Shown: piece after piece, positions 11,189 to 38,700 of the stretch
Layout: each line of letters opens with the position of its first letter
Position numbering within the stretch: position 1 is the first letter of the stretch
From: Omphalotus guepiniiformis
Taxonomy: Eukaryota; Basidiomycota; Agaricomycetes; Agaricales; Omphalotaceae
Direction: 5' to 3'
DNA: 64,000 bases
Assembly: GCA_028554645.1 (NCBI GenBank)
Contig: JAQOOI010000057.1
Location: forward strand, 1-64,000
Program-made: the position numbers and the translations under genes
Notes under the pieces: generated by a model
Database searches by the model: none
Told to the model about the DNA's origin: nothing
Seen by the model: only the letters and a program-made list of their open reading frames with translations

Positions 11189-12534
11189 TAAATGAAAAGA
11201 AGCTTGAAGGAAAGGAAGTAGGCCTGGAAAGAGACGTAAGTTCAAATGATAAGTATGCATGCATGGGGAAGGACTGTACAAGGATCCGTCCAGGAAGGAT
11301 GAACAGAGGGTGCGTGTATCCATCGTGTATAGAAGAGCTTATTGGCGTTGTATACGATGAATGAAGAAGGGAGCTTGAAGAAAAGGAAGTAGGCCTGGAA
11401 AGAGACGTAAGTCCAAATGATAAGTATGCATGCATGGGGAAGGACCGTACAAGGATCCGTCCAGGAAGGATGCACAGAGGGTGCGTGTACCGTCGTGTAT
11501 AGAGGAGCTTGTTGCATGGCATCGTGCCCGGAGATGAATTCCAAGCAGGACAAGAGCGGCGCGAGGATAGTTGGTTGAGTTAGTTAGTTATAGTTATAGT
11601 GCCTAGGCGTGTTTGATCGATCACCCGTGTCGAGAGTGAACTCTCGCCAGGGGTTAGGGAAGGGGTAAGACCCGTGTCGAGAGTAAACTCTCGACAAGGG
11701 CACTGACGGAGGAGGTAGCCACGATGAAGGGTGAGAGGGACTCCGAGGTCAAACGCCGAAGTCAGTTTAAGACTCCGCTTGAAATAGAAGATTAGATTAA
11801 GATGAGCGCTGGCTTGCATCTGTTTGGCTGAGGCTTCGATATAAAGATTAGATGAAGAGATGATCGCTGGCTTGCATCTATTTGGCTGAGGCTTCCATAC
11901 GATGATTAGAAGCGCGATCATCTTAATCTAATCTTCTATTTCAAGCGGAGTCTTAAACTGACTTCGGCGTTTGACCTCGGAGTCCCTCTCACCCTTCATC
12001 GTGGCTACCTCCTCCGTCAGTGCCCTTGTCGAGAGTTTACTCTCGACACGGGTCTTACCCCTTCCCTAACCCCTGGCGAGAGTTCACTCTCGACACGGGT
12101 GATCGATCAAACACGCCTAGGCACTATAACTATAACTAACTAACTCAACCAACTATCCTCGCGCCGCTCTTGTCCTGCTTGGAATTCATCTCCGGGCACG
12201 ATGCCATGCAACAAGCTCCTCTATACACGACGGTACACGCACCCTCTGTGCATCCTTCCTGGACGGATCCTTGTACGGTCCTTCCCCATGCATGCATACT
12301 TATCATTTGGACTTACGTCTCTTTCCAGGCCTACTTCCTTTTCTTCAAGCTCCCTTCTTCATTCATCGTATACAACGCCAATAAGCTCTTCTATACACGA
12401 TGGATACACGCACCCTCTGTTCATCCTTCCTGGACGGATCCTTGTACAGTCCTTCCCCATGCATGCATACTTATCATTTGAACTTACGTCTCTTTCCAGG
12501 CCTACTTCCTTTCCTTCAAGCTTCTTTTCATTTA
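11189..12534. repeat. Large inverted repeat, 617-base arms, 112-base loop
   Basis: Left arm 11189-11805 pairs without gaps with right arm 11918-12534 (paired coordinates sum to 23723). The stretches I compared, including two 103-codon open frames on opposite strands, are identical. The loop 11806-11917 contains two diverged direct copies of a CTGGCTTGCATCT...GAGGCTTC unit. Each arm contains about 170-base direct repeats (AAGGATCCGTCCAGGAAGG) and the smaller palindromes GTCGAGAGT-AA-ACTCTCGAC and GTCGAGAGT-GA-ACTCTCGC. Open frames in the arms look non-coding. Flanks outside the arms differ, which argues for a real foldback, but a read artefact is not excluded. Confidence 0.85.
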
Positions 12535-20694: not shown

Positions 20695-21039
20695 TCATTC
20701 ATACCCCATACCAAGCACATCACCGTCCACAAGCTTTCCATTCATGAAAGAGGTCGCAACATTGATCCTTTCATCATCCATTGTGATACCATTTTTCTTA
20801 TCACGGATATAGGTAAAGAGTCTCCGCTGCCAATTCTTGAACTCAGATTTGACGCCGGTGAAGTTGTCGGGTTTGTTGAGAAGTGATTTTCCTCGCGAGG
20901 TTTCGATTTCAGACATTCTGATAGGGATAGAAGGTTGGGTAGAATAGGGAGATGATGCAAGAGACTTGTAGGAAGGTGTGATAGGTGATGGGATGCTGGT
21001 TTCTTCGAAGAGACTGCTAAAGTTTCCCCAAGATTCCAT
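20695..21039 (-). pseudogene. LTR-retrotransposon gag fragment, 114 codons
   Basis: The frame starts MESWGNFSSLFEE and contains KPDNFTG followed by EFKNWQRRLFTYI, the usual opening of a retrotransposon Gag capsid region in Agaricomycetes. It stops after 114 codons, far short of a Gag. Upstream sequence up to 21553 reappears in inverted orientation at 35070-35155, as expected for remains of LTRs of the same older element. Relic. Confidence 0.5.
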
Positions 21040-21553
21040 AATGGTAGAGTTTACTTTGGTCTATCAGTCACCTCACAAAGAGATTTCAGGACCTTTTCTG
21101 CCTCTAATAGACGAGTTCCTAAATCTGTGCTCACTTGCTGAGTAAACCTGGGTGTGCCTTTCTAGGAGTGCACCTTGTTCCCCAAGTGCAAAGTCCTTCC
21201 CCGAAGGTCAGTTATCAGATGATGCTTTCTGCTGCCAGTACAGAGTCGGACTCAATGTTACTCTTTTGTACTATAGGCGCAATTACTCTATTAGAGCACA
21301 GATTCCTAATTCAGATGGAAACCCGAATATCAAAGGGAGAAAAACGAAGTAAGCGTGTGAAGGGTTAAGAGAAACTTACTTGCTACTGAAATAGCAACAA
21401 GAAGGCAATTTGATTTGTGTTGGTCGGGTGAGTTGTGTAGCTTCAATCTTATATCAGCAACTCGAGTTATCAAACTCAAATAACCAAACACAAAGATCTT
21501 AGTTTCACACGAGTAAGAGAAAAGCAGAGAATAGAATTGAGAAAAGAGGTGAT
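21040..21553 (-). repeat. Remnant LTR-like sequence of an older element
   Basis: No gene. The part 21480-21553, read on the minus strand, matches 35070-35155 on the plus strand (shared AACTAAGATCTTTGTGTTTG and GCTTTTCTCTT). The Ty3 element inserted into this older repeat; the interrupted sequence continues at 34623. Confidence 0.45.
21549..21553. other. Target-site duplication GTGAT (left)
   Basis: GTGAT directly precedes the left LTR and is repeated exactly at 34618-34622 after the right LTR. Confidence 0.95.
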
Positions 21554-22494
21554 TGTTAAGGAACAGAAGGTAAGGGTTAGTTACTCTGATCCACAATATG
21601 AGGGTTGGGGGCTAAGTTGTATTAATTGAGAATCTACTCAAAGAACACAATGGAGAAACTGAAGTGATAGTCTATATCACAGGAAAGAGGAAATGTGAAG
21701 AATGATGTATCAGGTAGCACTAGAAGAATAGGATTCACTTGGGAAAGCTTCAAGTGAAAAGAGGATGTTTTGATTACTGGAAATGCTTCAGTAACCAAGG
21801 AAGGTTGGAATACTTGGAAATGCTTCAAGTAATCTAGGAGTAGTTTGAAAACTGGAAATGCTTCAGTTGTTCAAGGAGAAAGTCTGGAAATGCTTCAGAC
21901 AATCAAAGAGAATACTGCTGGAAATGCTTCAGCAATACTTAGGAATAGACACTGGAAATGCTTCAGATGTCTTAGAGAATATCTGGAAATGCTTCAGATA
22001 TTGTAGGTTCAGTCACTGGTAATGCTTCAGCAACACTTAGAGAGTAAAAAGTACTTGAATTCACAAGACAGATTTACAAGATGGGGGTTAACAAGAAAAT
22101 AACTAGACTACTGTACACTAAGTTTCTGGGGCTTTATATACTACAAACCATGAGGCTAAACATGAGGCATACAATGAGGCATGCAATGAGGCATGCAATG
22201 AGGCATGCAATGAGGTTGCAGTGAGGCATGCCTTGAGGCTGAACATGAGGCCATTTGGACATGAGGCTACAATGTGGCTGCCTTAAGGCCAAACATGAGG
22301 CAGTTTGAACATGAGGTTGCAATGTGAGGCAGTGGATTATCTGGAATGACTAGTCCAATAGGTAGGTCATCTAAAATGACTAGTCTAATAACATCCAGAA
22401 TTTTGAAAATTTTCTGGTATCACTTTTGCTACACTTTTGTTGACTTGTTCAATCCTCTTGTATTCATGCCCCTAATTCATTTAAGTTCCTAACA
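21554..22494 (-). repeat. 3' LTR of the Ty3 element
   Basis: 941 bases, beginning TGTTAAGGAAC and ending GTTCCTAACA on the plus strand. Position for position it is offset 12,123 bases from the other LTR, with identical open frames. Confidence 0.95.
21734..22002 (-). repeat. Array of eight covarying hairpins, 3' LTR copy
   Basis: Plus-strand hairpins start at 21734, 21774, 21811, about 21846, 21882, 21916, 21948 and 21978. Stems: TTCACTTG/CAAGTGAA, TTACTG/CAGTAA, TACTTG/CAAGTA, AACTG/CAGTT, GTCTG/CAGAC, TGCTG/CAGCA, GACACTG/CAG(A)TGTC, AATATCTG/CAGATATT. The loop is GAAATGCTT in seven and GGAAAGCTT in the first. A ninth copy near 22015 has a weak stem. Only CTG/CAG next to the loop is constant; outer bases change in pairs. 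Confidence 0.85.
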
Positions 22495-22499
22495 GTACA

Positions 22500-22508
22500 C
22501 CCCCCTTC
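22500..22508 (-). other. Polypurine tract
   Basis: Minus strand GAAGGGGGG, five bases before the 3' LTR; the expected plus-strand primer site of an LTR element. Confidence 0.7.
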
Positions 22509-22762
22509 ACCAGCCGGAGCCCTCGACGGCATAGCATGTTTGATGGCACCAGTGGTACAATTTCAAGACATCTTCAATACTGAAATTGAAATATAGTCTT
22601 GCTATGAAAGTAATGTTTGTCCACATAGATGATAATCAATAGAGATGTAGATTCCTAATCCCATGTACTATGAGTGGTCCATTAATTTTCTTGAGATCAA
22701 AGCCCAGCATCCTTTCCATGGTAGGCCTGAGCAAGAGCATGCGAGCGCGTTGATTTGCTAAT

Positions 22763-22780
22763 ATATATCACGTGATATAT
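22763..22780. promoter_or_regulatory. E-box palindrome ATATATCACGTGATATAT
   Basis: A perfect 18-base palindrome centred on CACGTG. It lies inside the element just after the polypurine tract, upstream of the opposite-strand coding region, where a promoter for it would be expected. Confidence 0.45.
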
Positions 22781-22837
22781 TGAACGCGCGTACGGCCACG
22801 TTTGCCAATCCTCTTGGAGTATGTACTGTATGTTCCC

Positions 22838-24660
22838 CGTTATCATCTTCGTATGACGGCTTCCACTTTCTCTGCTCTCGCTATGTCTCAACAGTCTGTT
22901 TGCCGCATATTCCGGAACTTTACGACTCCAACTTTCGCGACGTTCTCCTCCCAGCCACCATTGATGAAGTTGGTGTGGAAACGAAAGGTGGTGATGTTGT
23001 TGGCAAAGAACCACGAAATGTGATGATGGATGTGTTGTTGGCTACCTCTCACCATGCATACACAGAGAATGAAGCGCCTGCATACTGCTTCCGGCGCTGA
23101 CACTGAGGTTGATCTAACAACTGAGGAGCATTCATGAGGGAATTTAAAAAGGACGGTTTTTATTGGTACGTCCAATGCTTTATATTTTCCGCAATTGCAT
23201 ACTCCAATATGAACCAGGGACGAAGGCAACGCTACACGGACCAGGGATGAACGACAGACCCTGCTCAACGTTGCGGATTCATGCCCGCTTTTGGTATCGC
23301 TGTGAAGGGCTGTAGTGCACTCATAACTCTCTCTTGGACGAGGTCTGGCCCATCATTGAGGCTGGTCTTCAGGGTAGTGATGCTTCGGTTGGGAAAGAGA
23401 TTGGTGTTGTGTCCTTGTTAGCGATGACGAGGTGCGTCACCACCTCTCTTTTTGTCTATTGCATGGCTAATGATCATTCTAGATCCGAATCTTCGTTGAC
23501 TTCGACTCAGATATCCCAAGACGCATCGGCCGTTTATCCTCAGAAGACCGTGACGATCCATCCATTCCCACACTCGTCGTCTTTATACTCAGTATTAGTT
23601 TGCTCATGCAACTGCGCGAACGTTACGACGGCTGGGTCTTTCGTAACGCCGTAATTCTATCTGTCTATGCTCTGTTACCATGGGAAGTCGAACCTCCGGT
23701 ATACGTCTGCAGAGAAGGGTCGAGGACTTCAAGGGTGGTTTGGTGGGCAACAAAGCGGTTGTTGTTTATTGGGTTTGCGTTACGACTGGTGGACTTACTG
23801 GAAGTACGGTGCGTGGCTCTCTGCTCTAGATCATTTTTCATCCTTTGGCTAGAACTCCAAGTGCGACAATTGCGCAAAGGTTCTCGAACATTCTGTCTCC
23901 TGTTTTCACCACAATCTACGACCTTCGACATGGGTACACCACCACAACGGCGCCTCCAATGGCTACAATAATCGATAGGAGTACAAAGAGGGACTTGTGA
24001 ATGGGGCGCGAGGCAATGGGTGGGACTTAGACTGCTGAGAAAATAGAGGGTTGACGGGTTAACGGACGACCAGCGAGATGTTCTAGTGAGTGCAATTTCC
24101 CATTTCACGGACTACCGGACTGAATCTTTGAATCGAATTGGTAGGTTAGTTTATCTTGATCCTTGTCTGGTACAGAACATTCCAATAAAGGATCATGCGG
24201 CTGTTGGATTCCATTTCGATACCTCCACGAGTTCTCCTTCCTCAATCATGAAGTATTCTATTCATGTGGTGCGTTGTCGTAACCTTTTGCTTCGAAATCG
24301 TTATTCATGCACGTCTATTGGTGTTCTGCATATCGTCAGTTCTCGTACGATATCCAATGCAGGTTTCGTGGACCCCAACGAACAACTCGGAAGTACGACA
24401 GAGTGTCTGTGAGCGAAGAGGATGTTGCAGGGGTTGGATGAGCAGGATGATGTCGTTGAAGGGTACTGTAACGGGGTCCGCAGTAGGAGTGTACGTTCCT
24501 CGTGTACATCGTCTACACGCCACTCGTTAGAATTTTAATTTGAACTAGTTCTTCCATGTTCTACTTGAGATATGTTTCCCATGCATCCTCGTGTTCTTGT
24601 TCAGTGGAATTCCGGGACGGAGGATGTTAATGATAACTCGTTACTATAAAATCTAGCTTT
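22838..24660 (+). pseudogene. Decayed opposite-strand coding region in the Ty3 element
   Basis: Coding-like exons appear on the plus strand with good splice sites but without a continuous frame. MREFKKDGFYW at 23135 joins through a GTACGT...AACCAG intron to DEGNATRTRDERQTLLNVADSC. Around 23490, after a GTGCGT...CATTCTAG intron, another frame reads FVDFDSDIPRRIGRLSSED and a hydrophobic stretch. At 23679 ACCATGGGA opens a frame that splices to a CDNCAKVLEH segment ending at 23978. I could not build one product, so I read this as a degraded or captured gene. No family recognised. Confidence 0.35.
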
Positions 24661-24722
24661 TCATCATGTATTCATCCCATTGTCCTCTTGACAATTCATC
24701 CGTCTTTCGCCTTATTCCTGCC

Positions 24723-25876
24723 ATGAATTTCGAAACCTCTGCTACTCAGTCCTCTGTATTAGTTGATCTCGTTCCTCGCATTGCTGGTGGTGGCTCTCTC
24801 ACTTGGATGAACATTCCAGTGGTGCCAGCTCCAAGTCTTCGAGAACTGGTAGACATGTGGGTACTTCTTTGAACTCCATTTGTCCAAGTGAGCTGACCAA
24901 TTACCTTAGCCGTATTAGTGAACTTGAAGCGGAATACAAGGAACAATTGAAAACCAATGAGCCGACAGTTTTTCGAGGCGAAACTTTAGGGGCTAGGTAA
25001 GTGTAAATCACCATTTCGTGGTGTTGTATTGATAGTTTTTTAGGCTCGTTGCTAGCCTTCGCGCTCGAGCGAAGCTCCTTATGGATGATAAACGAACATT
25101 AGAGGATGAAAAGAAGTCACTTGAAAGGTATGTTGCCTATCCTCCCATGTTCTTTTTTTTTGCTGCTGTTGCTGATATCTTCCCCTAGTGATCTTACTCG
25201 TACTCAGGAGGAATTGACTGTAGCTCGCAACACTGGTTCTCGCATGGGTCAATTAGCCGCAACCCTACAAGGTCAGGTAGTGCGATTGAATCGTATGAAG
25301 AAATCGTACTACTGCGTGGTAGCTGCTCAATCTCGTCGTAATGGTCAACTTAAGGAGCGTGATGCGGAGATTGTACGCCTTCGTCGGGAGTTGGAACAGG
25401 GAACGGTGCTTCAGAGAATTCTGGCTGATATGGCTTATAGGGGACTTCGTGCGGACCCTACCCCCTTCTTCGATGCGCTTCGTCGGGACTTAGAGACCAT
25501 TGTGCGGGGTGTTTTTCAAGCTCAACACCAGTTGTCAGAGGGGCAGATGAGGGTGGAGACACTGGAATCTTGGCTTGTTGAGAGCTTTGACAAGATGATG
25601 GGGACTATTTCACATGCTCGTCTCACTCGGGATGAACTCCTGTCTCTGCATTTCCAACGTCTTGGTATTGCTGATGCTCTTGCTCACCTCTCTAACATTT
25701 CTCGCATTACTTATCCCAGTGCCTGGACTGTAGCTGAATCTCATGTCAATCCAGTGGTTATTGACTTGGATGATGATGAAACAGTTACAGGTTTGTCTCC
25801 TGCTATTATTGACCTGACTGTTGATGATGAGGGAGATGGTGAAGTGGAATTGGAGTATCCAGAGTTAGATAATTAG
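24723..25876 (+). CDS. Antisense coiled-coil protein with SUMO-interaction-like motifs, 330 aa
   Basis: A spliced gene within the retrotransposon but on the opposite strand. Exons 24723-24856, 24910-24996, 25044-25127 and 25189-25876 total 993 bases. Introns have GTGGGT/GTAAGT/GTATGT donors and CTTAG/TTTTAG/CCCTAG acceptors. An in-frame ATG at 24666 would add 19 residues. After a Ser/Thr-rich start come heptad-rich segments (RISELEAEYKEQLK; LEDEKKSLESDLTRTQEELT; LKERDAEIVRLRRELEQ), probably a coiled coil, then a helical region, then an acidic end with VVIDLDDDE and AIIDLTVDDEGD, both like SUMO-interaction motifs. Function unknown; it may be a captured host gene or an element accessory protein. 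It ends about 100 bases from the pol stop, tail to tail. Confidence 0.75.
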
Positions 25877-25979
25877 GGAGATAGTTGTAACCAATGTATG
25901 CCAAGAAATAACCTGATTCTGTACATGACAAGTAGATGATTAACTCTCTATGCCATATTGCTTGAATGATTTGTTGAGG

Positions 25980-28900
25980 TTATTTCTGAGTTTGACTTCT
26001 TTCCTGTTCTACTGCTCTCTCCAGTTCACCATCATGAAGTCCTATTTTGTTGGGATGCTTTTGGTGAAAATCTTCAATGTATTCTTGAGATCCAACCACA
26101 TTTCTAATTGGTTCCCAAGAATCATATTCTGGATCATAACCTTTCCAGCGGACTAGGTATTCCATTCTTCCCCATCTTCTACGGTTATCCAAAATTTGTT
26201 CCACTTCATAGTGTTCTTCATCATCAATTTCAACTGGGGGAGGAGGTGGTTGTCGACGTTGGGGAAAATGTTCCGGTGGATTAGCAGTCAACAAGTCCAC
26301 ATGGAATGTATTATGAAGAGTTTGCATGCTGCGTGGTAATGCCAATCGATATGCATGATCAGAAATCTTCTTAACTATCTTGAATGGTCCCAGTTGCTTA
26401 TGATCCAACTTCTTGGTAGGCCTTTTAGTCTTGATGTTTTTTGCATTTAACCATACCAACATTCCTTCCTTCCAGTCACTAGGTGTCTTCCTTCTTTTAG
26501 GATTGGTGTACTTCTTTGCTGATTCATTACTCCTTTTGATTTCACTCTTTAGGTAATCATGAACATCTTTAAGTTCTTGAGCCTTTAACTGTGCCTGATG
26601 ATTTGGCAACCCTTTGAGTGAAATGGTTAATCTAGGATGGAATCCTTTATTTGCAAAGAAGGGTGTTAGTCCAGTAGCATCACTTGGAGAGTTGTTATAA
26701 GTGAATTCTGCTAGTGGAAGCCATTCTTCCCAATCATCCTGGTCATAGTTAACAAACAGTCTGAGATACTGCTCCAAAGTCTGGTTTGTTCTTTCAGTCT
26801 GTCCATCTGTTTGTGGATGATAACCAGTGGAATAATTGGTTTTGACATCTAGTGCATCACAAAGTGAATGCCAAAAGGTTGACACAAAGGTAGATCCTCT
26901 ATCAGAAACTATATCCACTGGAAGACCATGCTTGGAAAATATGTGCTTAATGAAGAGTTTAGCCAGTTGTGAAGCATTGTCATCAGTACGACATGCTATG
27001 AATACTGCTTGTTTGGTCAACCGGCAAACTACAACCATAATAGCATTAAATCCATTTGATTCTGGCAGTTCTCCAATATGGTCCACTGATATAGAACTCC
27101 ATGGTCTTTCACCAATGGGTAGTGGTTTGAGCAGACCAAATGGTTTCCGGCGACTACTCTTTGCCCTCAGACATTCATGACAACTTCTAACATACTTCTT
27201 TACATCCTTTTGCAATCCTGGCCAAAAGTATGTCCGGTGAATCATCTGTGCTGTTTTCCGCATTCCAGGATGGCCCATTAGCTTATGGTCATGATGTACT
27301 TGAAGGATTCTAAGTCTAAGAGAAGCATTGTTTGGTACATAGACCAATCCATCTCTGAGTAGTAATCCATTTTCCATCTTGAATGGTCCAGGCTCTTCTG
27401 ATTCTGCTATAGCCTTGTGCTCTTTCCAGTATCTATCCTTCTCTACACTATGGATGTGTGCCAGGTCTGCTTCATCATTCATAATAAGAGAAGTTGATAA
27501 CCTTTCAGGATTTAGCAGTACCCTGTGATTCTCACTGTTCACTGCTGCTTGTGCTGACTTCTTGGGGTAGACATCATTTCTCCTTGTAAGGGCATCTGGT
27601 TTTCCTCCTAATTTTCCTGGCCTGTAGTTGATCACAAAGTCAAATCCTGATAGAAACTCTGACCATCTTGCTTGTCTTCTACTCAGAGTTTTGGTGGTAG
27701 TGAACCATTGAAGGTTATTGTGATCTGTGAAGACTTCAATCTTGTACTTGGACCCTTCCAAATATGCACGCCACTGTTTGAATGATTCTACAATAGCTAA
27801 TAGCTCCTTATCATAGATATCATAGTTCAACTCTGCACTAGTCATGCTCCTTGCATAGAATGCAATAGGGTGTATTTCTCCAGATTCCTTGTTCTGCTGG
27901 GATATAATGGATGCTATAGCATAGTCAGATGCATCAGCTTCCACAATGATAGGTAATTCTGGATCAAAGTGCTGGAGTATAGGAGCTTCTTGAAATGCTT
28001 TCTTCAAGAGTTCAAAGACTGTGGTGCATTCTTCTGTCCAAATCCAAGGTTTGTCTTTACTGGTAAGCCTTGTGAGAGGTTTGACTATTCCAGAATAGTT
28101 GTCAATGAATCTTCTATAAAAATTTGCAAACCCCAAAAATGATTGTAGCTCCTTCACATTTGTTGGTGTCTCCCATTTCTGGATAACTTCTATCTTCTTG
28201 GGATCCATAGTGACACCTTCTGGAGAAACAATGACACCTAGATATTCAACAGAGTTGGTATGGAATTCACATTTCTCTGGTTTGATATGCAGATCATGTT
28301 CTTCCAGTCTTTGCAACACTTTAGAGACATGTTCAAAATGTTGTTGCTCATTTTCTGAGAAAATCAAGATGTCATCAAGATAGACTATGACAAACACATC
28401 TACCATGTCACGGAATATGTCATTGATGAAGTGCTGGAATACAGAAGGAGCATTGGTTAGACCAAAGGGCATGACCAAGTACTCATAAGCACCATATCTG
28501 GTTCTAAATGAGGTTTTCCATTCATGTCCTTCAGCAACCCTTATATTGTTGTACCCTGCTCTGAGGTCCAGTTTGGTGTAGATTTTAGCACTTCTCAACT
28601 GGTCAATGAGATTACCAATGAGTGGAAGGGGATAGCGGTTCTTTCTTGTAAGCCTATTTAGTGCACGATAGTCCACACACAGTCTGAGACTTCCATCTTT
28701 TTTCTTGGCAAACAAGACTGGAGCTCCAATTGGTGAACTAGAAGGCCTGATAAATCCCTTTTCCATCATTTCATCAATGTAATCCTTGAGAACCTTCAAT
28801 TCTTTTTCTGACAGGTTGTATAACTTCCCATAGGGTGGTAGTTTGTCATCCTCAGTATCAATCCTGATATCATAAGGTCTATGTTGTGGCAGGCCTTTAG

Positions 28901-29903
28901 CTTCTGTGGCTGAGAAAGCTTTGGCATATTGATGATACTGTTTGGGTACAAATTTATCCAGTAGTTCTTGCTCAGAGAGTTTGCTGGATTTTGGTTTATC
29001 TGGAACTTCTGAATTCTCATTACTGGTAGAGGCCATTCCTGCATCTACTTCTGCTTCCTCAATGCTTGGCATTATGTATAGAATTGATGCTTCACATCCT
29101 TCCATCACTAGTTGAGCAAAGGAGGCTGCACCTAGCAAGCATATATGTGGGGTGTTATCTTCCATTTGAGGATCAGAGGTAGGAGGTTTAGATTTGGGAA
29201 TGGACTGTTGAATTGTTTCCTGCTCTTGGAGGTATTCATTCATCTCATCTATGTGTATCAAGATTGGGTCTTCCAATCCTAATCCTGACTTCTGAAATTC
29301 ATATATCTCTTCCTCATCTTCTATAGTTACTCCATTCTTCTTGTTTATGGAAGGTCTGACAATATAGTGTGTGATCTGTGTGAGATCATATACTTCTGCA
29401 GCCATAAGCTGAACACTGTTATTGAAAGAGAACTTCAAGTCAGTCCAGTTTACTTGAGGATTGTACTTCCTAAACCAAGGTAGTCCCAGTACTATGAGAG
29501 TTTCAGGATGAAGCTGAGTAACCAAGAAGTTTATATGATGAGTTGTTCCATCAGTGAATGTGATTGGTGCAAAGAATTTGTGTGTGATTTTCCCTGCAGA
29601 GGTGAATTGTCCATCAAAGAGTCTTAGTGGAATGGGAAGAGGTAGGGGCTTGAGTCTTTCAGGATAAAGACTTGCTAGTTTGATATCAATGAATTCTCTA
29701 GTTGCACCTGTATCCAGCAGGCAGTGATAGTTAACAGAGTTGGAATTGAAAATTGTTGCAGAAATGATGAAGGATTGTTCTGATCTAGAAGTTATGGTGA
29801 CTGGTTCAACCACTGCACCATTTAAATATATGGAATCAGTTTCTTCTGGACTCAAATGTGACTCCTGCCATCCTGAGTCTCCTGCAAGTTTCCCGAGTTG
29901 TTG
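25980..29903 (-). CDS. pol: Pol polyprotein (PR-RT-RH-IN-chromodomain), ~1307 codons
   Basis: Catalytic polyprotein reached by -1 frameshift from Gag; it has no own ATG. Numbering from the TTG at 29855: aspartic protease LLDTGA (about 46-51); reverse transcriptase with FAKKKDGSLRLCVDYRALN and YLDDILIF (about 490); RNase H with EADASDYA, YDKELLAIVE and TDHNNLQWF; integrase zinc domain HHDHKLMGH...CHEC, then the D, D, E catalytic residues in VDHIGE (about 923), VSDRGS (about 983) and QTDGQTERTNQ (about 1020); a GPF module; and a chromodomain YEVEQILDNRRR...YLVRWKGYD...SWEP (about 1217-1265). The chromodomain should direct integration to methylated-histone chromatin. All catalytic residues are present and the frame is unbroken. 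Confidence 0.97.
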   Translation of the reverse strand, partial: QQLGKLAGDSGWQESHLSPEETDSIYLNGAVVEPVTITSRSEQSFIISATIFNSNSVNYHCLLDTGATREFIDIKLASLYPERLKPLPLPIPLRLFDGQFTSAGKITHKFFAPITFTDGTTHHINFLVTQLHPETLIVLGLPWFRKYNPQVNWTDLKFSFNNSVQLMAAEVYDLTQITHYIVRPSINKKNGVTIEDEEEIYEFQKSGLGLEDPILIHIDEMNEYLQEQETIQQSIPKSKPPTSDPQMEDNTPHICLLGAASFAQLVMEGCEASILYIMPSIEEAEVDAGMASTSNENSEVPDKPKSSKLSEQELLDKFVPKQYHQYAKAFSATEAKGLPQHRPYDIRIDTEDDKLPPYGKLYNLSEKELKVLKDYIDEMMEKGFIRPSSSPIGAPVLFAKKKDGSLRLCVDYRALNRLTRKNRYPLPLIGNLIDQLRSAKIYTKLDLRAGYNNIRVAEGHEWKTSFRTRYGAYEYLVMPFGLTNAPSVFQHFINDIFRDMVDVFVIVYLDDILIFSENEQQHFEHVSKVLQRLEEHDLHIKPEKCEFHTNSVEYLGVIVSPEGVTMDPKKIEVIQKWETPTNVKELQSFLGFANFYRRFIDNYSGIVKPLTRLTSKDKPWIWTEECTTVFELLKKAFQEAPILQHFDPELPIIVEADASDYAIASIISQQNKESGEIHPIAFYARSMTSAELNYDIYDKELLAIVESFKQWRAYLEGSKYKIEVFTDHNNLQWFTTTKTLSRRQARWSEFLSGFDFVINYRPGKLGGKPDALTRRNDVYPKKSAQAAVNSENHRVLLNPERLSTSLIMNDEADLAHIHSVEKDRYWKEHKAIAESEEPGPFKMENGLLLRDGLVYVPNNASLRLRILQVHHDHKLMGHPGMRKTAQMIHRTYFWPGLQKDVKKYVRSCHECLRAKSSRRKPFGLLKPLPIGERPWSSISVDHIGELPESNGFNAIMVVVCRLTKQAVFIACRTDDNASQLAKLFIKHIFSKHGLPVDIVSDRGSTFVSTFWHSLCDALDVKTNYSTGYHPQTDGQTERTNQTLEQYLRLFVNYDQDDWEEWLPLAEFTYNNSPSDATGLTPFFANKGFHPRLTISLKGLPNHQAQLKAQELKDVHDYLKSEIKRSNESAKKYTNPKRRKTPSDWKEGMLVWLNAKNIKTKRPTKKLDHKQLGPFKIVKKISDHAYRLALPRSMQTLHNTFHVDLLTANPPEHFPQRRQPPPPPVEIDDEEHYEVEQILDNRRRWGRMEYLVRWKGYDPEYDSWEPIRNVVGSQEYIEDFHQKHPNKIGLHDGELERAVEQERSQTQK

Positions 29904-32900
29904 TCATCTTCATATTCCTCTCCATTGGCGCCCTCTTGGAAATTGGTGTCTTCTATCTGAATAATGCCATCCTCTCCTTCAACTTCCAAATATGTTCCAT
30001 CTCTTTCTTCTTCAACATTGTCCACAAACACTGCTCTACCATTGACAGCATTGCCAGTCCCTGTATTGTTGCCATAGCGGTTTGCATTTGAATTGGAGTT
30101 TGGCATTGGATAAGTCCTACATTCTCTACCAAAGTGCCCTGGTTTGCCACAGCGCATACACAACCTTTCTCTCATCCGCCGTTCATATTCTTCTTGTGAA
30201 ATACGGGGTGGGAAGTTTGATTGGGATTGTGTTTCTCCTGTTTCTGCAGCATTCCCACTGACTGCATTGGGAGTGTTAGCATTACGAAGTCGATAGGTAT
30301 TGTTTGACACAAAACGAGTTTGAACTACACGCTGATTAGTGTCTGTTTGTTGATTATTCCAGTTGCGACTATAAGTGTTGTCTCCAAGACCCATGTCATT
30401 GAGTGCTTCACGAGCAGTATCAATTTCCAGGAGTCTTTCAACAACTTCATCATAAGACTCAGGAATTTTCCCATTGTTTGTGAGTCGATTTCTGAGATCA
30501 GAGCGGATTTGTCGGAGCAATCGGAACCGTAAAGCTGGATCATTGTAGTTGGTCTTATTTGCCACATCCTCAAAGCGCACAAGGAAATCAGCAAAGGCTT
30601 CTTTGAACTTCTGATATACAGTATCCAGTTTGGATTGAGAGTATAAAGTCTCATCATGTAAGCCAAACATCTTACTGAACATCTTTAAGAATTCATTCCA
30701 TGTGTTCAAAGCTGCAATGAAATTGCCATTTCGCCGTTTGCGCATGAGATTGTTGTAATACCGCAAAGCTGGACCATTGAAATATGATGCGGCAAATGTA
30801 ATTTGAGATGATTCAGAGGCATAGATGGTGGGTTTGGCAGCAAACATGTTCTCACAGCTGTCAACAAAGGTAGACCATTCAGCACGGCTTTCTCCAGAGA
30901 ACTCTTTGGGTTTGTTGATGTCCAACTTAGCTTCTCTATTGAGAGCACGAGTGAGTTCTTCTCTTTGTCGACGTTCTTCTGCATCTTCCTGATTGCGGCC
31001 ATCTCTTCCATCTCTTCCATCTCTACCATCTCTGCCATCTCTACCATCTCTACCATTTCTACCATTTCTTCTATGATTGTAGTCATCATCACTTTCATCT
31101 CCAGATGGGGGACCATTTGGTCCTTGGGGTCCTCCTGGTCCTCCTGGTCCTCCTGGTGTTGTCCAATGACTTGGTCCTTCCCCTCTAGATGACTGATTGT
31201 GTTCATCATCAGAATCAGAATCAGAATCATCATAGTGAGAGTGCCCAGGGCCATTGGGGTCATCTGGGGGTCCTCCAGCATTCCTTATGGGAGTCTTACC
31301 TTTGTTGGGAGTATAAGGATATTGTTGGTTTCTCCTTAATTCTGAAATCCTAGATGATCCTGGTGAGTGACTTACCTCATGATTTCTAGAAGGTCCTGCT
31401 GTGTTTTGCCTGTATTGCCTAGAAGTGTTTTGATCCTCTCTTCTAACATCCAAATGTGGTGGGGCATCTCTTTCCATACCAGAGGGTACTCTGTTCCTAG
31501 CTGCAGGCATCTGCATTGAATGAGACTGATTGGAAGGACCTAGCTGTACTGGGGCCTGAGCTCTGGTTGGTTCATCTTGAGGATGTAAGGGGGAATTATT
31601 TGGTTGAGGCTCAACTCTGGTTTGACCTCTTTGGATTCTTGATTCTAATTCTTCCCTCCAAGTTTGTGTCCTGTTTCTCCTCTGTACTCCACTAGATTCC
31701 TGTACTGAACTCTCTGGAGGTACCTCATCATCTCTATAACCAGGTACTCTGTTGGGTCTCAAAACTGTTTCAGGTTCATTTACTTCCACATCTTCCTCTT
31801 GTGATTCATGGATGAAAACTGCTGTATCATCTATGTAGTTGACACTCTGAATGTTTTCCTGTGGAAGTTCTTGAACTACAGGATTAGATGAATGAGTTTC
31901 AATATGATTGGATGCTCTGTTTGAGGAAGGATTGGATGTTCTGGAAGTGGGAATCTGTTCATAAGTAGGTGCTGGGGGCTCTCCAGGATATGGTGGTACA
32001 GGGTCTGGGATATTGTACTCTGTGTTTCTGTAGAAAGGAACATTGGGTATCCCTACTACAGTGGTGGAGTCTGACCCTGAGGATACCATTATTGGTTGAG
32101 TACTAGGGTGCCAGGGAGTTGCAATACGTCCTTGCACTGCTTGGGGTATTGTACTTCTCACAGTTGAAGGAGTAGTGTTGATGAATTGTTGTACTCTACC
32201 AACAGTACTAGGCCAATGTACTGCATGTTGAGGTGATTGTACTGGAGTATGGGTTGGTACTCTAGTATACCCTTGTAGGTTGGTATGAGAGCTCCTGACT
32301 GACCTATCATCTACCACTTGCCAATTTCCATTCACATTAGCAGAGTTCAGAGTCCACTGGAAAATGTCCATTTCAGGATATAGCTGGTAGGATCTTGGAG
32401 ATGTTGAATGTGGATGATCACTTGCCTCTGAAAGCAAGGTTGTTCTGGCAGAGTGAGGGGTATTACTCCTTGGAGATGAGACTCTGCTAGATGGCTCTTG
32501 CATATTCAAAAGATTGAGCATCATGGGTCTTTGTGAGAAGTTATATAGATTTGTGAGTTCCCTTGCATTATGAGGGAATTGCAAAGCATGTGCTATGGGC
32601 TCTGATAAGTCAGATAGATTAGTTTGAGCCAGCCTGCGCATCATACGGATCCATCCATAATCATTTCTCCAAGAATCATCTTCTACTCCAATGCTGAGTA
32701 AAAAGGCTCTGCTTGAAATTGCCAATCCTGCTAGTTGAGTAGCTGATACACTACGCTCCTGTTCATAGTCATTGGTGGTATGGGATCCTGATGAAGCTCT
32801 GTGTGAAGGTATACTCTCTCTGACACTATGTCTTTGACTTCTGTTAGAGTGGATAGTATTATGTGTGGATGTTGGAGCACCATGTGAAGTAGAATGTCCT

Positions 32901-33643
32901 TGTACATTTCTAGCAGCTGCTGTAGGGACATGAGGATTGGAATACATGCTTCCCAACACATCTCTTAAGCCCTCATTATAACTTTGGAAACCTGTGTCCA
33001 TACTAGCCTCTTGCCATTGTTGAGTTCTGGGTGTGGAGTGTGCAATGGGATGTTGCATAGTTGGTGGTTCATACTCCTCATCCTCTTCATCATTGTCAGA
33101 TTCAGAATCACTGGCAGCCTGTAATGCAGGCATGTCTGCATGCTCATCTTCATCATCTGCTATGTTCCCTGTATCACCAGCAGCTCCATTACTAGAAGAA
33201 CTTGAAACATGGATGGCTGCTTGACTGGGGAATTGAGACTGATCTTGATATGGTTCTTGCAGCAAATTATCAATGGTGTTGGGACCAGGTGTTAGTTCAG
33301 CCATGCCTTGTTCTCCATACAATTCAGCTCTCAGTATCTCAGTCTGAAGAGTGGATCTAGGTCTGACTGGGGAAATAGGAGTGAGTTCTTGGAAGGTGAG
33401 ACCTGTAGTTCTGTCTCTTCTTCTCCTTGGTCTTCTAACTGCTACTCCTGGTGGGATTTGTTGTGGTGTACTTCCTAGGGTTTGTCCTGGAGTTTCAAAT
33501 GGAGTAAAACTCTGGGATTGCCTGTTAACTGGTCCTTCAGAGACAGATCTTCTGAGATTGGTGCTGTCTGGGGTGAGGACATAGTGTCTAGGAGAAGTGG
33601 TCTGTTGTTGGTTGGTCTGGGTGTGGGTTGTTTGAGTAGACAT
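29852..33643 (-). CDS. gag: Gag polyprotein of the Ty3 element, 1263 aa
   Basis: The structural protein that packages element RNA. It starts at an ATG only 33 bases inside the 5' LTR. Residues 1 to about 880 are a long disordered extension rich in Ser, Pro, Gln, Thr and charged runs, including a collagen-like GPGGPGGPQGPNGPP stretch and a (RDG)n run from a microsatellite near 31000-31070. The capsid (retrotrans_gag) region starts near residue 905 (DINKPKEFSGESRAEW) and ends near 1090. A CCHC zinc knuckle, CMRCGKPGHFGREC (CX2CX4HX4C), lies at about 1155-1170. Ordinary chromovirus Gags are 300-500 residues, so the extension is unusual. The last codons hold the frameshift signal that gives access to pol. 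Confidence 0.93.
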   Translation of the reverse strand: MSTQTTHTQTNQQQTTSPRHYVLTPDSTNLRRSVSEGPVNRQSQSFTPFETPGQTLGSTPQQIPPGVAVRRPRRRRDRTTGLTFQELTPISPVRPRSTLQTEILRAELYGEQGMAELTPGPNTIDNLLQEPYQDQSQFPSQAAIHVSSSSSNGAAGDTGNIADDEDEHADMPALQAASDSESDNDEEDEEYEPPTMQHPIAHSTPRTQQWQEASMDTGFQSYNEGLRDVLGSMYSNPHVPTAAARNVQGHSTSHGAPTSTHNTIHSNRSQRHSVRESIPSHRASSGSHTTNDYEQERSVSATQLAGLAISSRAFLLSIGVEDDSWRNDYGWIRMMRRLAQTNLSDLSEPIAHALQFPHNARELTNLYNFSQRPMMLNLLNMQEPSSRVSSPRSNTPHSARTTLLSEASDHPHSTSPRSYQLYPEMDIFQWTLNSANVNGNWQVVDDRSVRSSHTNLQGYTRVPTHTPVQSPQHAVHWPSTVGRVQQFINTTPSTVRSTIPQAVQGRIATPWHPSTQPIMVSSGSDSTTVVGIPNVPFYRNTEYNIPDPVPPYPGEPPAPTYEQIPTSRTSNPSSNRASNHIETHSSNPVVQELPQENIQSVNYIDDTAVFIHESQEEDVEVNEPETVLRPNRVPGYRDDEVPPESSVQESSGVQRRNRTQTWREELESRIQRGQTRVEPQPNNSPLHPQDEPTRAQAPVQLGPSNQSHSMQMPAARNRVPSGMERDAPPHLDVRREDQNTSRQYRQNTAGPSRNHEVSHSPGSSRISELRRNQQYPYTPNKGKTPIRNAGGPPDDPNGPGHSHYDDSDSDSDDEHNQSSRGEGPSHWTTPGGPGGPGGPQGPNGPPSGDESDDDYNHRRNGRNGRDGRDGRDGRDGRDGRDGRNQEDAEERRQREELTRALNREAKLDINKPKEFSGESRAEWSTFVDSCENMFAAKPTIYASESSQITFAASYFNGPALRYYNNLMRKRRNGNFIAALNTWNEFLKMFSKMFGLHDETLYSQSKLDTVYQKFKEAFADFLVRFEDVANKTNYNDPALRFRLLRQIRSDLRNRLTNNGKIPESYDEVVERLLEIDTAREALNDMGLGDNTYSRNWNNQQTDTNQRVVQTRFVSNNTYRLRNANTPNAVSGNAAETGETQSQSNFPPRISQEEYERRMRERLCMRCGKPGHFGRECRTYPMPNSNSNANRYGNNTGTGNAVNGRAVFVDNVEEERDGTYLEVEGEDGIIQIEDTNFQEGANGEEYEDDNNSGNLQETQDGRSHI
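29888..29894 (-). promoter_or_regulatory. -1 ribosomal frameshift site G GGA AAC
   Basis: In the Gag frame the codons are TCG GGA AAC TTG, giving the slippery heptamer G GGA AAC 34 bases before the gag stop. Pol is open in the -1 frame from 29903 through this point. Eight bases downstream GACTCA can pair with TGAGTC (29854 region), a possible stimulatory stem. There is no ATG in the overlap. Confidence 0.8.
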
Positions 33644-33663
33644 CTCAACTGTAACTTAGTGGG

Positions 33664-33675
33664 AGTCTAGTTATT
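33664..33675 (-). other. Primer-binding site, self-priming type
   Basis: Reading the minus strand, one base after the LTR end comes AATAACTAGACT. This is the exact complement of AGTCTAGTTATT at the predicted RNA 5' end (34232-34221, also 22109-22098). It does not begin TGG as a tRNA-primed site would. Confidence 0.8.
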
Positions 33676-33856
33676 ATGTTAAGGAACAGAAGGTAAGGGT
33701 TAGTTACTCTGATCCACAATATGAGGGTTGGGGGCTAAGTTGTATTAATTGAGAATCTACTCAAAGAACACAATGGAGAAACTGAAGTGATAGTCTATAT
33801 CACAGGAAAGAGGAAATGTGAAGAATGATGTATCAGGTAGCACTAGAAGAATAGGA

Positions 33857-34125
33857 TTCACTTGGGAAAGCTTCAAGTGAAAAGAGGATGTTTTGATTAC
33901 TGGAAATGCTTCAGTAACCAAGGAAGGTTGGAATACTTGGAAATGCTTCAAGTAATCTAGGAGTAGTTTGAAAACTGGAAATGCTTCAGTTGTTCAAGGA
34001 GAAAGTCTGGAAATGCTTCAGACAATCAAAGAGAATACTGCTGGAAATGCTTCAGCAATACTTAGGAATAGACACTGGAAATGCTTCAGATGTCTTAGAG
34101 AATATCTGGAAATGCTTCAGATATT
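33857..34125 (-). repeat. Array of eight covarying hairpins, 5' LTR copy (RNA leader)
   Basis: The same array in the 5' LTR. In element RNA each unit reads CUG-AAGCAUUUC-CAG in the middle. An alternative fold pairs CUGAA with UUCAG around a GCAU tetraloop, leaving one bulged C. The array lies about 110-375 bases downstream of the predicted RNA start, within the untranslated leader. Confidence 0.85.
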
Positions 34126-34254
34126 GTAGGTTCAGTCACTGGTAATGCTTCAGCAACACTTAGAGAGTAAAAAGTACTTGAATTCACAAGACAGATTTAC
34201 AAGATGGGGGTTAACAAGAAAATAACTAGACTACTGTACACTAAGTTTCTGGGG

Positions 34255-34263
34255 CTTTATATA
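34255..34263 (-). promoter_or_regulatory. TATA box of the Ty3 element
   Basis: On the minus strand TATATAAAG starts 31 bases before AGTCTAGTTATT (34232-34221). That spacing puts the predicted RNA start at the bases that pair with the primer site. Confidence 0.7.
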
Positions 34264-34617
34264 CTACAAACCATGAGGCTAAACATGAGGCATACAATGA
34301 GGCATGCAATGAGGCATGCAATGAGGCATGCAATGAGGTTGCAGTGAGGCATGCCTTGAGGCTGAACATGAGGCCATTTGGACATGAGGCTACAATGTGG
34401 CTGCCTTAAGGCCAAACATGAGGCAGTTTGAACATGAGGTTGCAATGTGAGGCAGTGGATTATCTGGAATGACTAGTCCAATAGGTAGGTCATCTAAAAT
34501 GACTAGTCTAATAACATCCAGAATTTTGAAAATTTTCTGGTATCACTTTTGCTACACTTTTGTTGACTTGTTCAATCCTCTTGTATTCATGCCCCTAATT
34601 CATTTAAGTTCCTAACA

Positions 34618-34622
34618 GTGAT
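34618..34622. other. Target-site duplication GTGAT (right)
   Basis: Exact repeat of 21549-21553, immediately after the right LTR. Confidence 0.95.
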
Positions 34623-35337
34623 ACAAAGGAATATGCTAAGTGCAAGTCTAAACTCGAGGAGTTATTGACAAGATCGAAGCTAAAGAAAGATCTACCTAAG
34701 CGGACTTGTTATATACATAAATAAATCCCTAAACCCTGGGCTATAACCCTTGACTAATCCACCTTGTGTCTACCATGAGTTCGATCGCCTCAAGTGTTTC
34801 ATTAATGATCGTGATCGCCTTGAGGTCTACATGCTTGATCTCGATCATCATGCTACCTATGTGTGTATTTGATATAACCCTAGATCTATAATTTAAGATG
34901 CTATCTACTGATAATAAAAGTGTCTATATGTACAAACAATGAGATAAGATGAAAAAAGAAAGTGTTCGTAACAGAAACCGGTAGAAGTCAACTTAGGGTT
35001 AGGCTGGATAGTATACTTTGTCAATACCTCCTTGAGTTTAGACTTATACTGAGCAATTTCCCTTGTATTGCTTTTCTTCTCAATCCTAATCTTTGCTTTT
35101 CTCTTCTTTGTGTGGAACTAAGATCTTTGTGTTTGGTTATCACTGTCTCCGACTCTTTCTTTCTTGTGCAAACAATATAAATCAAAAGATATCTTATTTT
35201 CATGAATATTGCAACAGAATATTGTGTGATAAAGTAAATATGAACAACATTCTTCCATATATCTAAAGAGAGATATTTGTTATTTAACAAAGAACTACTT
35301 TTCTATGGAAGAAAGACAAAACAATGGTTTTACTTTC
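34623..35337. repeat. AT-rich relic sequence flanking the Ty3 element
   Basis: No gene. The first part continues the sequence interrupted by the Ty3 insertion. Bases 35070-35155 match 21480-21553 in inverted orientation, consistent with remains of an older LTR. Confidence 0.45.
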
Positions 35338-35706: not shown

Positions 35707-38700
35707 TTAAACAACATTGGCCTCATTCCCAAAGCTAGCAGCAGTGTGGAGAGCAAATCCATATCCACCACCCTTTGCATTGACATCTGCACCTGCAGAG
35801 AGAAGATTCCTCACAATGGCCTCATGTCCAGAGCTAGCAGCAGCTTGGAGAGCATATCCATATTCACCACCCTGAGCATTCACATCTGCACCTGCAGAGA
35901 GCAAGTGCCTTACAATGGCCTCATTTCCAGAGCAAGCAGCAGCTTGGAGAGCAGATCCATATACACCACCCTTTGCATTGACATCTGCACCTGCAGAGAG
36001 AAGGTCCTTAACAATGGCCGCATGTACAAACCTAATAGCAAGATAGAGAGCAGATCCATATCTACCACCCTTTGCATTGACATCTGCACCTGCAGAGAGA
36101 AGATTCTTCACAATGGCCTCATGCCCAGACAAAGCAGCAGCTTGGAGAGCAGATCCATATACACACTCTGCATTGACATCTGCACCTGCAGAGAGAAGGT
36201 CCTTCACAATGGCCTCATGTCCAAACCTAATAGCAAGATAGAGAGCAGATCCATATCTACCACCCTTTGCATTGACATCTGCACCTGCAGAGAGAAGGTC
36301 CTTCACAATGGCCTCATGTCCAAACCAAATAGCAAGATAGAGAGCAGATCCATCTCCACCACTCTTAGCATTGACATCTGCACCTGCAGCAAGAAGGTCC
36401 TTCACAATGGCCTCATGTCCAAACTCAATAGCAAGATAGAGAGCAGATCCATATTCACCACCCTTTGCATTGACATCTGCACCTGCAGAGAGAAGATTAT
36501 TCACAATGGCCTCCTGTCCAGAAAAAGCAGCAGCTTGAAGAGCAGATCCATATACACACTCTGCATTGACATCTGCACCTGCAGAGAGAAGGTCCTTCAC
36601 AATGGCCTCATGTCCAAACCAAATAGCAAGATAGAGAGCAGATCCATCTCCACCACTCTTAGCATTGACATCTGCACCTGCAGCAAGAAGGTCCTTCACA
36701 ATGGCCTCATGTCCAAACTCAATAGCAAGATAGAGAGCAGATCCATATTCACCACCCTTTGCATTGACATCTGCACCTGCAGAGAGAAGATTCTTCACAA
36801 TGGCCTCATGTCCAGACATAGCAGCAGCTTGGAGAGCAGATCCATATACACACTCTGCATTGACATCTGCACCTGCAGAGAGAAGGTCCTTCACAATGGC
36901 CTCATGTCCAGAGCTAGCAGCAGCTTGGAGAGCAGATCCATATTCACCACCCTTTGCATTGACATCTGCACCTGCAGAGAGACGGTCCTTCACAATGGCC
37001 TCATGTCCAGAGCTAGCAGCAAGATAGAGAGCAGATCCATATACACCACCCTTTGCATTGACATCTGCACCTGCAGAGAGAAGATTATTCACAATGGCCT
37101 CCTGTCCAGAAAAAGCAGCAGCTTGAAGAGCAGATCCATATACACACTCTGCATTGACATCTGCACCTGCAGCAAGAAGGTCCTTCACAATGGCCTCATG
37201 TCCAAACTCAATAGCAAGATAGAGAGCAGATCCATATTCACCACCTTGTGCATTCACATCTGCTCCTGCAGAGAGGAGAAGCTTTGCAATAGCCTCATGC
37301 CCAGACAAAGCAGCAGCATGGAGAGCAGATCTATATCTACCACCCTTTGCATTGACATCTGCACCTGCAGAGAGAAGGTCCTTCACAATGGCCTGATGTC
37401 CAGAGCTAGCAGCAGCTTGAAGAGCAGATCCATATTCACCACTTTTTGCATTGACATCTGCACCCTCCTGTATAAGCCTGCCAGTAATCTTGTGTAGTCC
37501 TGTATAGGCTGCATAATACAGAGGCTCTCCAACCTCTAACCAATGATCTGGTCTGTGTAATTCTAACCATTTCAGAAATGCCACCTTCTTGCTATTCAGT
37601 AGCTCTACCCCACTCTGAACTATTCTGTCATCCATTGGTCCCATTAACCTTCCATGATCTGTCCAGTTTTGTACTGCATATTCTGCCAATGGAAATTCAT
37701 TAAGATCTCTCAACTCTCTTGAATGTGTCTCTTTGCCATAATAACAGAGATAGATGATGCAGCTGTGTGCAATTACACCATGCGCAAGCTTCTCATCAAT
37801 CTTAAAACATGCAGTGGAGCCATATTTCATACACTCTATCATAAGAAATTCCTTCACAGAATGATGAGCCAGCTGCACAAGTTCCTGCTGTACAGACACT
37901 AGTGTGGTGTCAACAATCCGGCGAAGTTTGCCACTAAGCCCATCTTCCTGGTCCATTGCCTTAAATGACAGGCTGTCTAGATCTGTTGCCAATACTGCAG
38001 CCAACTCCTGGACTGATAGAGGCCTTACAGCATATGTAAGCCATTGAAATATAAGCTTCGCATCTGACTTCTTCTTCTCAGAGATGTAGCATAGCTTGTT
38101 CATATATGTTGTTTCAAGATCAGGTGGAAGATCCTTCAATGTTTGTCTCACTGCTCTGGCAGTTCCACATGTCATAAGTGTGCCTATTTGACAGTCAACC
38201 CATCTGAATCTTAATGATGTTAGCTAATAGTCATCCAGCAGAATATATAAAGCCTTACTGTCCATGTGTTCCATTCACCAAAAACTGTGTTACTTCATTT
38301 TCCATATTGCCCTTAAGCTTTAGCCTTGGGATGTTAACATCCAGATATAATTTGACATCTACACTGATATTCTCTGTATCCAGCTGGAGAGTAGTGCACT
38401 TTATAAAATCAACACCTGGATTGTGGCGGCTGGTCACCAGTACATGCATCCTATTCAGGGCCAATAGGCTCTGAATCAAGACAGTGATCTCATACTGTGC
38501 TGGCTCAGTGGCCTCATCTATGGCATCCATGATGATATACATGGGTTTCACAGATAAACAAGAAGCTAGCACCTCTATGATGTTATCCTTAAGCACAGGA
38601 AGAGCTGGCTTCTGAGGATTGTCTTTGTATTTCTCATACAACTTTTTTATCCCAGAAGGAACATCTTTGGAACACAAGATGAGCTGGGCCAATAGAGAGG

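Follow-up and report, generated by a model that had tools for sequence, protein, structure and literature searches.

A covarying array of near-constant-loop hairpins in the leader of a Ty3 chromovirus of Omphalotus guepiniiformis, possibly read by the element's own Gag

Retroviral leaders hold a few distinct stem-loops. For Ty3, the packaging sequences are described as not precisely defined, according to the passages drawn on here (PMC4974528, PMC11381356). In the packaging-signal-mediated assembly of single-stranded RNA viruses (MS2, STNV, parechovirus, HBV pregenome), stem-loops that share a recognition motif and vary in the remainder are read by the coat protein (PMC6281560). In Tf1, the first 11 bases of the RNA pair with the PBS, and RNase H cleavage falls between bases 11 and 12; the parts of that source used here mention no hairpin array (PMC7175516). 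A further system is that of yeast Whi3, whose motif is GCAU and which acts on GCAU clusters, including that of the CLN3 5' UTR; in the excerpts used, binding of Whi3 to GCAU motifs is modelled, and sites in a 5' UTR may allow it to inhibit translation (PMC3875557).

The locus described here lies in a window of 64,000 nucleotides (GCA_028554645.1, contig JAQOOI010000057.1, positions 1 to 64,000) and combines traits of several of these systems. As in the packaging signals of single-stranded RNA viruses, several stem-loops share one loop motif and the rest is variable. However, the viral signals are dispersed and vary around the motif, whereas here the units stand in one tandem row in a retrotransposon LTR and their 9-nt loop hardly varies; binding by a coat protein is a feature of the viral signals and would be a prediction for the array. 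With retroviral psi and the Ty1/Ty3 leaders it shares a structured 5' RNA end lying between R and gag, beside the PBS, together with a CCHC Gag, but instead of a few distinct stem-loops it has 9-11 copies of one. With Tf1/sushi elements it shares a PBS adjacent to the LTR to which the 5' end of the RNA is complementary. Searches of the literature, largely outside subscription journals, brought up no comparable array in any retroelement.

The window element is a Ty3 chromovirus of the self-priming type on the minus strand. Its main parts are:

33677-34617, minus strand: 5' LTR, 941 bp, TGTTAGG...CCTTAACA in sense
21554-22494, minus strand: 3' LTR, identical to the 5' LTR
29852-33643, minus strand: gag open reading frame, 1263 aa, with its ATG at 33643
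25980-29855, minus strand: pol open reading frame with protease, RT, RNase H, integrase and chromodomain

The two LTRs show 100% identity over a length of 943 in a self-comparison, end in TG...CA and are directly flanked outside the element by ATCAC on both sides, a 5-bp target duplication. With identical LTRs and a target duplication, the element is a recent insertion of a young Ty3 chromovirus. This class, already named in the preliminary description, is borne out by the order of the Pfam domains in pol (RVT_1, RT_RNaseH, Integrase_H2C2, rve, SH3_Tf2-1, Chromo), in which RT and RNase H lie ahead of the integrase and a chromodomain closes the C terminus; the rve match scored 31.0 at a cut-off of 32.6, and that of the protease 18.9 bits, under the cut-off of 24.3. 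Gag consists of a low-order N-terminal stretch of ~906 aa followed by the capsid domain and a CCHC knuckle. Pfam returned Retrotrans_gag and a zinc knuckle slightly below cut-off, and no family for the 906-aa stretch. Order-promoting residues make up 17.5% of this stretch versus 32.0% of pol. Among 7985 scored candidates, none was related to Gag residues 1-500 at E 0.001; residues 560-960 had a single match, over 8% of the query, among 7993 candidates, which was taken as low complexity. The matched protein carries PF01391, the collagen repeat.

Several other features were seen in and around the element. An open frame of 256 aa (25106-25876, plus strand) lies antisense to the element between pol and the 3' LTR; it has no Pfam match at E 0.1, and its VIDLDDDE and IIDLTVDDE resemble SUMO-interacting motifs. 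The U3 region contains four direct repeats of CCTCATTGYATG (sense) at ~34290-34340, ahead of the TATA box. Two regions of tandem repeats, with periods of ~100-110 bp, occupy 18894-20405 and 35707-37497 of the window, the latter within a minus-strand open frame of 822 aa, and 11189-12534 is a near-perfect inverted repeat of 1.35 kb (96% self-match to the opposite strand).

The signals that frame the leader are as follows:

34255-34263, minus strand: TATA box TATATAAAG
34221-34232, minus strand: self-primer AGTCTAGTTATT at the inferred RNA 5' end, a 12-nt perfect complement of the PBS
33740-33773, minus strand: two-part U5 stem, TTGTGTT..TTGAG/CTCAA..AATACAA, whose TTGAGTAGA can instead pair with the start of gag
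33664-33675, minus strand: PBS AATAACTAGACT, adjoining the LTR end and complementary to the inferred RNA 5' end

Judged by the TATA box, the transcript would start ~30 nt past it, at 34225-34235. The 12-nt complementarity between the RNA 5' end, as placed by the TATA box, and a PBS beside the LTR corresponds to the arrangement of Tf1/sushi elements. The first hairpin lies ~100 nt downstream of the TATA box, and the array is thus found, as had been proposed, in the inferred transcribed leader, between the TATA box at 34255-34263 and the gag ATG at 33643. The 592-nt leader contains no AUG, although shuffles lead one to expect 7.1 and none of 1000 shuffles was without AUG; the 692 nt from TATA to gag in the related subfamily B (see below) contain none either. 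Hence, the leader reads as a scanned 5' UTR. Self-primer-like matches of 10-12 nt also occur in four of six tested LTRs of other Ty3 families (F1a, F2b, F3 and F4a), and none was reported for the two F6 LTR copies.

The array in the 5' leader comprises nine hairpins at 33857-34157, listed here in the order of the RNA:

34135-34157, minus strand: hairpin 1, loop AAGCAUUAC (plus strand GTAATGCTT), 7 bp with two G-U
34101-34125, minus strand: hairpin 2, loop AAGCAUUUC, 8 bp
34070-34095, minus strand: hairpin 3, 8 bp with a bulged U
34034-34062, minus strand: hairpin 4, 10 bp with two G-U
34005-34023, minus strand: hairpin 5, 5 bp
33968-33997, minus strand: hairpin 6, 10 bp with a bulged C
33934-33954, minus strand: hairpin 7, 6 bp
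33893-33921, minus strand: hairpin 8, 10 bp with one G-U
33857-33881, minus strand: hairpin 9, loop AAGCUUUCC (plus strand GGAAAGCTT), 8 bp
21734-22034, minus strand: the same nine hairpins in the 3' LTR copy

The preliminary description had reported eight hairpins with a constant loop in both LTRs, at 33857-34125 in the 5' copy. The array is present at this place and in the 3' LTR, and that range does cover eight hairpins; there are actually nine, the one at 34135-34157 having been missed. The constancy of the loop holds for seven of the nine hairpins, in which AAGCAUUUC is exact, and the two end units (at 33857 and 34135) deviate by one or two bases. The one-base bulges of hairpins 3 and 6 lie in the 5' arm. 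From the unit at 33900 onward, the start-to-start spacing is 31-38 nt (37, 38, 32, 34, 34, 31 and 33). A coding tandem repeat was rejected as an explanation because the spacings do not run in multiples of three. The sequence GAAATGCTT occurs 16 times in the window compared with 0.73 expected, and 14 of these occurrences fall inside the two arrays. When both strands of the window were scanned blindly for sets of at least three hairpins with a constant loop and different arms, the array and one three-copy TCTG match were recovered; Rfam had no match at gathering score in 21000-35000. Two ways in which the loops might pair by themselves were discarded: kissing between identical loops, since the loop is by eye not self-complementary, and pairing with another part of the element RNA, since no exact GAAATGCTT exists on the sense strand inside the element. 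A further sense AAGCATTTC is located in pol at 27992-28000.

That the stems covary within the array, as stated in the preliminary description, is borne out, in that no re-dealt arms pair as well as the true ones. In the nine window units, 71 of 90 cells pair versus a re-dealt mean of 54.8 (reached in 0 of 20,000), and in the eleven units of locus L009 from subfamily B, 95 of 110 versus 68.2 (0 of 20,000); beyond their loops, no pairing filter was applied to these two whole arrays. Over all fetched loci, the 65 distinct arm pairs give 504 of 650 paired cells versus 375.2 (0 of 2000), a pool with a mild bias toward pairing since locus units were kept only if they formed at least two pairs. Contiguous pairs number 62 versus 35.0 re-dealt in the nine A units and 69 versus 35.2 in nine B units (0 of 20,000 each). 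A hand-chosen alignment of 21 units (A1), made without the bulged unit 3, has 82.9% paired cells compared with 60.6% after shuffling and 30.5-44.3% with slid partners; with unit 3 added, the value is 81.4% (0 of 2000). In this alignment, two-sided cells (52 versus 20.3 expected, 0 of 500), further pair types (26 versus 20.6, 1 of 500) and the covariation score (0.625 versus 0.209 shuffled, 0 of 500) all exceed the shuffles, whereas 8 columns contain any two-sided change, which is no excess over the 7.5 of the shuffles (295 of 500). Thus, pairing within the arrays exceeds chance. The innermost two pairs (U-A and G-C) are the same in all 21 units, and pairs 3-10 vary, a single position showing up to six standard pair types; in a unit of L025, which stands outside A1, the innermost G-C is replaced by A-U with both sides changed.

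Related copies in the genome were compared with the founder units (four distinct units were skipped as too far or without frame). Uncompensated changes in relatives had been named beforehand as the outcome that would speak against structure, and the picture is mixed: 12 stem changes keep the pair, 3 of them two-sided, versus 30 that break it. Herein, 21 of the 30 breaks fall in loci L021-L026, some within units fused by deletion; these loci are taken as decayed because no matching partner LTR was present among the matches. The remaining breaks are in L014 (3), L028 (1), L036 (1), L005/L006/L030 (1, one element) and L037-L040 (3). When the folded array pairs of A are compared with B, 66 are unchanged, 3 changed and kept, 5 broken and 1 gapped; in the opposite direction, 68 of the B pairs are unchanged, 5 kept, 9 unpaired and 23 gapped. 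With so few stem pairs changed between A and B, the covariation rests mainly on the units within arrays and not on orthologous stems.

The kind of wobble pair tells which strand is paired, since an A-C mismatch on the sense strand is a G-U pair on the antisense strand. In the stem cores of 20 founder units (9 of subfamily A, 9 of B and 2 of L027), where only positions within the helix were counted, 14 G-U stand against 1 A-C on the sense strand (A 5/0, B 7/1, L027 2/0), or ~11 to 1 when units common to A and B are counted once. Cruder counts show a weaker sense bias: over 60 distinct arm pairs, G-U and A-C stand at 47 versus 34 for all ten positions (re-dealt 60.1 versus 51.0), at 35 versus 15 in symmetrical extension from the loop and at 28 versus 6 for those between Watson-Crick pairs. 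In addition, 174 of the 210 cells in A1 pair on the sense strand and 163 on the antisense strand, and the fold energy lies 3.6 sd below dinucleotide shuffles for the sense array and 2.2 for the antisense one. The antisense strand folds as well, and the constant core forms two more pairs there. Of the two forms that had been suggested, RNA structure and cruciform, the wobble bias thus points to sense RNA and disfavours the cruciform.

In predicted folds of the whole A and B leaders, extended by 0 to 300 nt of gag, the mean hairpin probability is 0.82-0.97, the weakest single hairpins in A being unit 1 (0.58) and unit 3 (0.68). The array hairpins persist in these predictions, and their flanks switch from primer:PBS to U5:gag-start pairing as gag is included: without gag, a primer:PBS helix closes the array (P 0.96 in A, 0.91 in B), and with 60 nt of gag its probability falls to 0.001 or less and U5:gag start is favoured. 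In the latter state, U5 TTGAGTAGA (33756-33772) is predicted in both A and B to pair with TCTACTCAA (33624-33640) right after the gag ATG. This pairing is reminiscent of the retroviral U5:AUG helix.

Two subfamilies allow rates of change to be compared. Subfamily A is that of the window element with nine units; copies of subfamily B have up to 11 exact-loop units (L009, L010), and the A/B alignment shows a 69-nt gap that corresponds to a block of two more units in B. Between the gag genes of A (window) and B (L066), both open with 1263 aa, dS is 0.29, dN 0.049 and dN/dS 0.17; hence, gag is under purifying selection. One A leader (window) was compared with one B leader (L010), with stem and spacer labels taken from the predicted folds (paired in A or B), which makes the comparison mildly circular. 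Differences occur at 3 of 81 loop sites (3.7%), 17 of 174 stem sites (9.8%) and 18 of 48 spacer sites (37.5%), compared with ~204 of 842 synonymous gag sites (24%), 21 of 212 sites of the leader 3' of the array and 16 of 100 sites from TATA to unit 1. By Fisher tests, loops and stems differ from spacers (p 9e-7 and 2e-5), and loops, stems and the 3' leader differ from synonymous sites (2e-6, 1e-5 and 2e-6); loop versus stem (0.13) and spacer versus synonymous (0.057) are not significantly different. The claim of selection on structure therefore agrees with stems and loops that change more slowly than spacers between A and B. Slow change is, however, not special to the hairpins, as the 3' leader is as slow as the stems; since the leader outside the array is slow too, the array is marked by fast spacers between slow hairpins.

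In BLAST comparisons, B copies match the A LTR mainly in R/U5 at 85-87% identity and hardly in U3. The exception is L016 (303900-305400 of C58, the contig of the window), a natural recombinant LTR with an A-type U3 and a B-type R/U5, whose joint lies in the self-primer stretch with a few stray other-type sites on each side. The position of the joint suggests the product expected if strong-stop DNA from a B RNA moved to the 3' end of an A RNA after the self-primer cut, and thereby that A and B RNAs may be copackaged. Recombination of LTRs at the DNA level could produce such a joint as well, and an array is not required for copackaging.

In the genome (42.5 Mb, 80 contigs), 252 copies of the core TGAAGCATTTCCA are present and none of the reversed control; 248 of these cores fall in 37 loci with LTRs of this element and its relatives, and the other 4 lie outside these loci. 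On the sense strand of nine LTR-leader stretches from other Ty3 families (two copies each of F1, F2, F4 and F6 and one of F3; an F5 copy without LTR pair was left out), no constant-loop array was present, as searched by three or more loops of 4-10 nt on at least five contiguous pairs with different arms. As far as seen, the array is confined to one lineage within the sampled families of this genome. The distance from the 5' LTR to RT is 4.9 kb here versus 2.1-2.7 kb in the nine sampled copies, an extra length taken to be the long N-terminal Gag stretch (906 aa before the capsid). Judged by these distances in the other families, the array and the long Gag stretch appear to co-occur; as they do so in one lineage, this counts as one event. 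A two-loop pattern search outside the genome gave 3 matches in viral contigs and 1 in genome contigs (a Fibrobacter MAG); these four were rejected as arrays, since the 601 bases around each are by eye coding-like and have no hairpin array. A third lineage, L027 (C75:784200-785700), is an inverted, rearranged fragment of decayed LTR pieces with a fold-back palindrome of 421-bp exact inverted copies around 159 bp, which could be an assembly artefact or an inverted duplication; from L027, L024 and L026 only single units were used (two of L027 in the strand count; one of L027, two of L024 and one of L026 in another comparison), and no claim at the family level is built on them.

A near-constant loop, a free stem and many copies together mean that something probably reads the loop. 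We propose, at a probability of about 0.47, that the array is a leader RNA element read by the element's own Gag for packaging of the genomic RNA. It would act in cis in the leader of the genomic RNA and gag mRNA, each short hairpin presenting the 9-nt loop AAGCAUUUC open to a partner; the stem would need only to pair, so that its sequence could drift by compensating changes, and nine (A) or up to eleven (B) repeats would make binding multivalent. With Gag as the partner, this docking array beside the self-priming site may select, condense and possibly help pair the genomic RNA for assembly of virus-like particles. The features computed for the array are its hairpins, the covariation of its units, the selection gradient, the sense bias, its absence in the sampled families and the self-priming complementarity; the partner, its identity as Gag and the packaging role are what we infer. 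Gag is the first candidate because of the location typical of packaging signals, the restriction to one lineage with an unusually long Gag and the possible copackaging of A and B RNAs. The capsid and the single CCHC knuckle are ordinary, which counts against Gag as a special reader. A more speculative extension, to which we give clearly less weight, is that the multivalent scaffold and the ~900-residue low-order Gag stretch evolved together and that Gag docking nucleates a condensate selecting only its own genomic RNA.

Judged from the sequence, a host RNA-binding protein would be the next most likely partner after Gag. The loops would then form a cluster of sites through which the host governs how the element RNA is translated, how stable it is or where it is located, a reading that we regard as rather unlikely though well worth weighing. 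The clusters bound by Whi3 resemble the array in their repeated GCAU, 5' UTR included (PMC3875557), and the modelled binding of Whi3 to GCAU with possible inhibition of translation from the 5' UTR counts for such a protein (PMC3875557). GCAU is the loop core and is clustered in both the A array and L009, being kept in 8 of 9 A loops and in all 11 exact-loop units of L009, and a long leader without AUG fits translational control by the host. A Whi3-type reader would, however, leave much of the design unused: the array has a longer fixed loop on a paired stem, and the extra fixed bases and the hairpin setting exceed the needs of a 4-nt motif. Neither 'stem' nor 'hairpin' appears in the text of the Whi3 paper, although one passage asks whether Whi3 also recognises structure (PMC3875557). 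In addition, with 248 of the 252 cores in LTR loci of the element and its relatives, host genes hardly share the exact core, and none of the nine LTR-leader stretches scanned from this host's other Ty3 families has an array.

The remaining readings are less probable still. It is improbable that the array mainly shapes the leader, its stable hairpins shortening the path from the 5' end to the PBS (~560 nt), preventing other pairing and aiding self-priming: the primer:PBS helix that closes the array in the predicted fold without gag supports this, but the same helix is lost once 60 nt of gag are included, self-primer-like matches also exist in families F1-F4, in whose sampled stretches no array was present, and the near-constant loop is left unexplained. 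At the DNA level, GAAATGCTTC could be a near-palindromic protein site, such as an internal enhancer, with arms serving a dimeric factor or a cruciform. A GAA-N4-TTC dyad is visible, other repeats are present in U3, and the plus strand has the longer core helix; against this, DNA pairing would give no bias such as that of 14 G-U to 1 A-C, the outer arms have no common sequence and the array lies inside the inferred transcript, which makes this reading very improbable. A pure scaffolding or DNA-level role fails to explain the loop and the strand bias together. Hardly credible, finally, is an origin without structural selection, by tandem duplication and template-switch correction of inverted repeats at reverse transcription. 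Unit blocks do come and go, as seen in the 69-nt two-unit gap between A and B and in units of L021 and L022 that look fused by deletion. Correction, however, yields perfect Watson-Crick arms and not G-U pairs on one strand, loops and stems change more slowly than spacers and synonymous sites between A and B, and the nine stretches scanned from other families show no array.

How LTR retrotransposons choose their RNA is poorly defined, and the array offers a natural, repeated and selected RNA element for this question, for which two subfamilies and decayed copies serve as controls and the near-fixed 9-nt loop makes the partner testable. If the partner is Gag, the array would be an unusually clean case of multivalent-loop packaging in a retroelement; if it is a host protein, a control point of the host on its transposons would be exposed.
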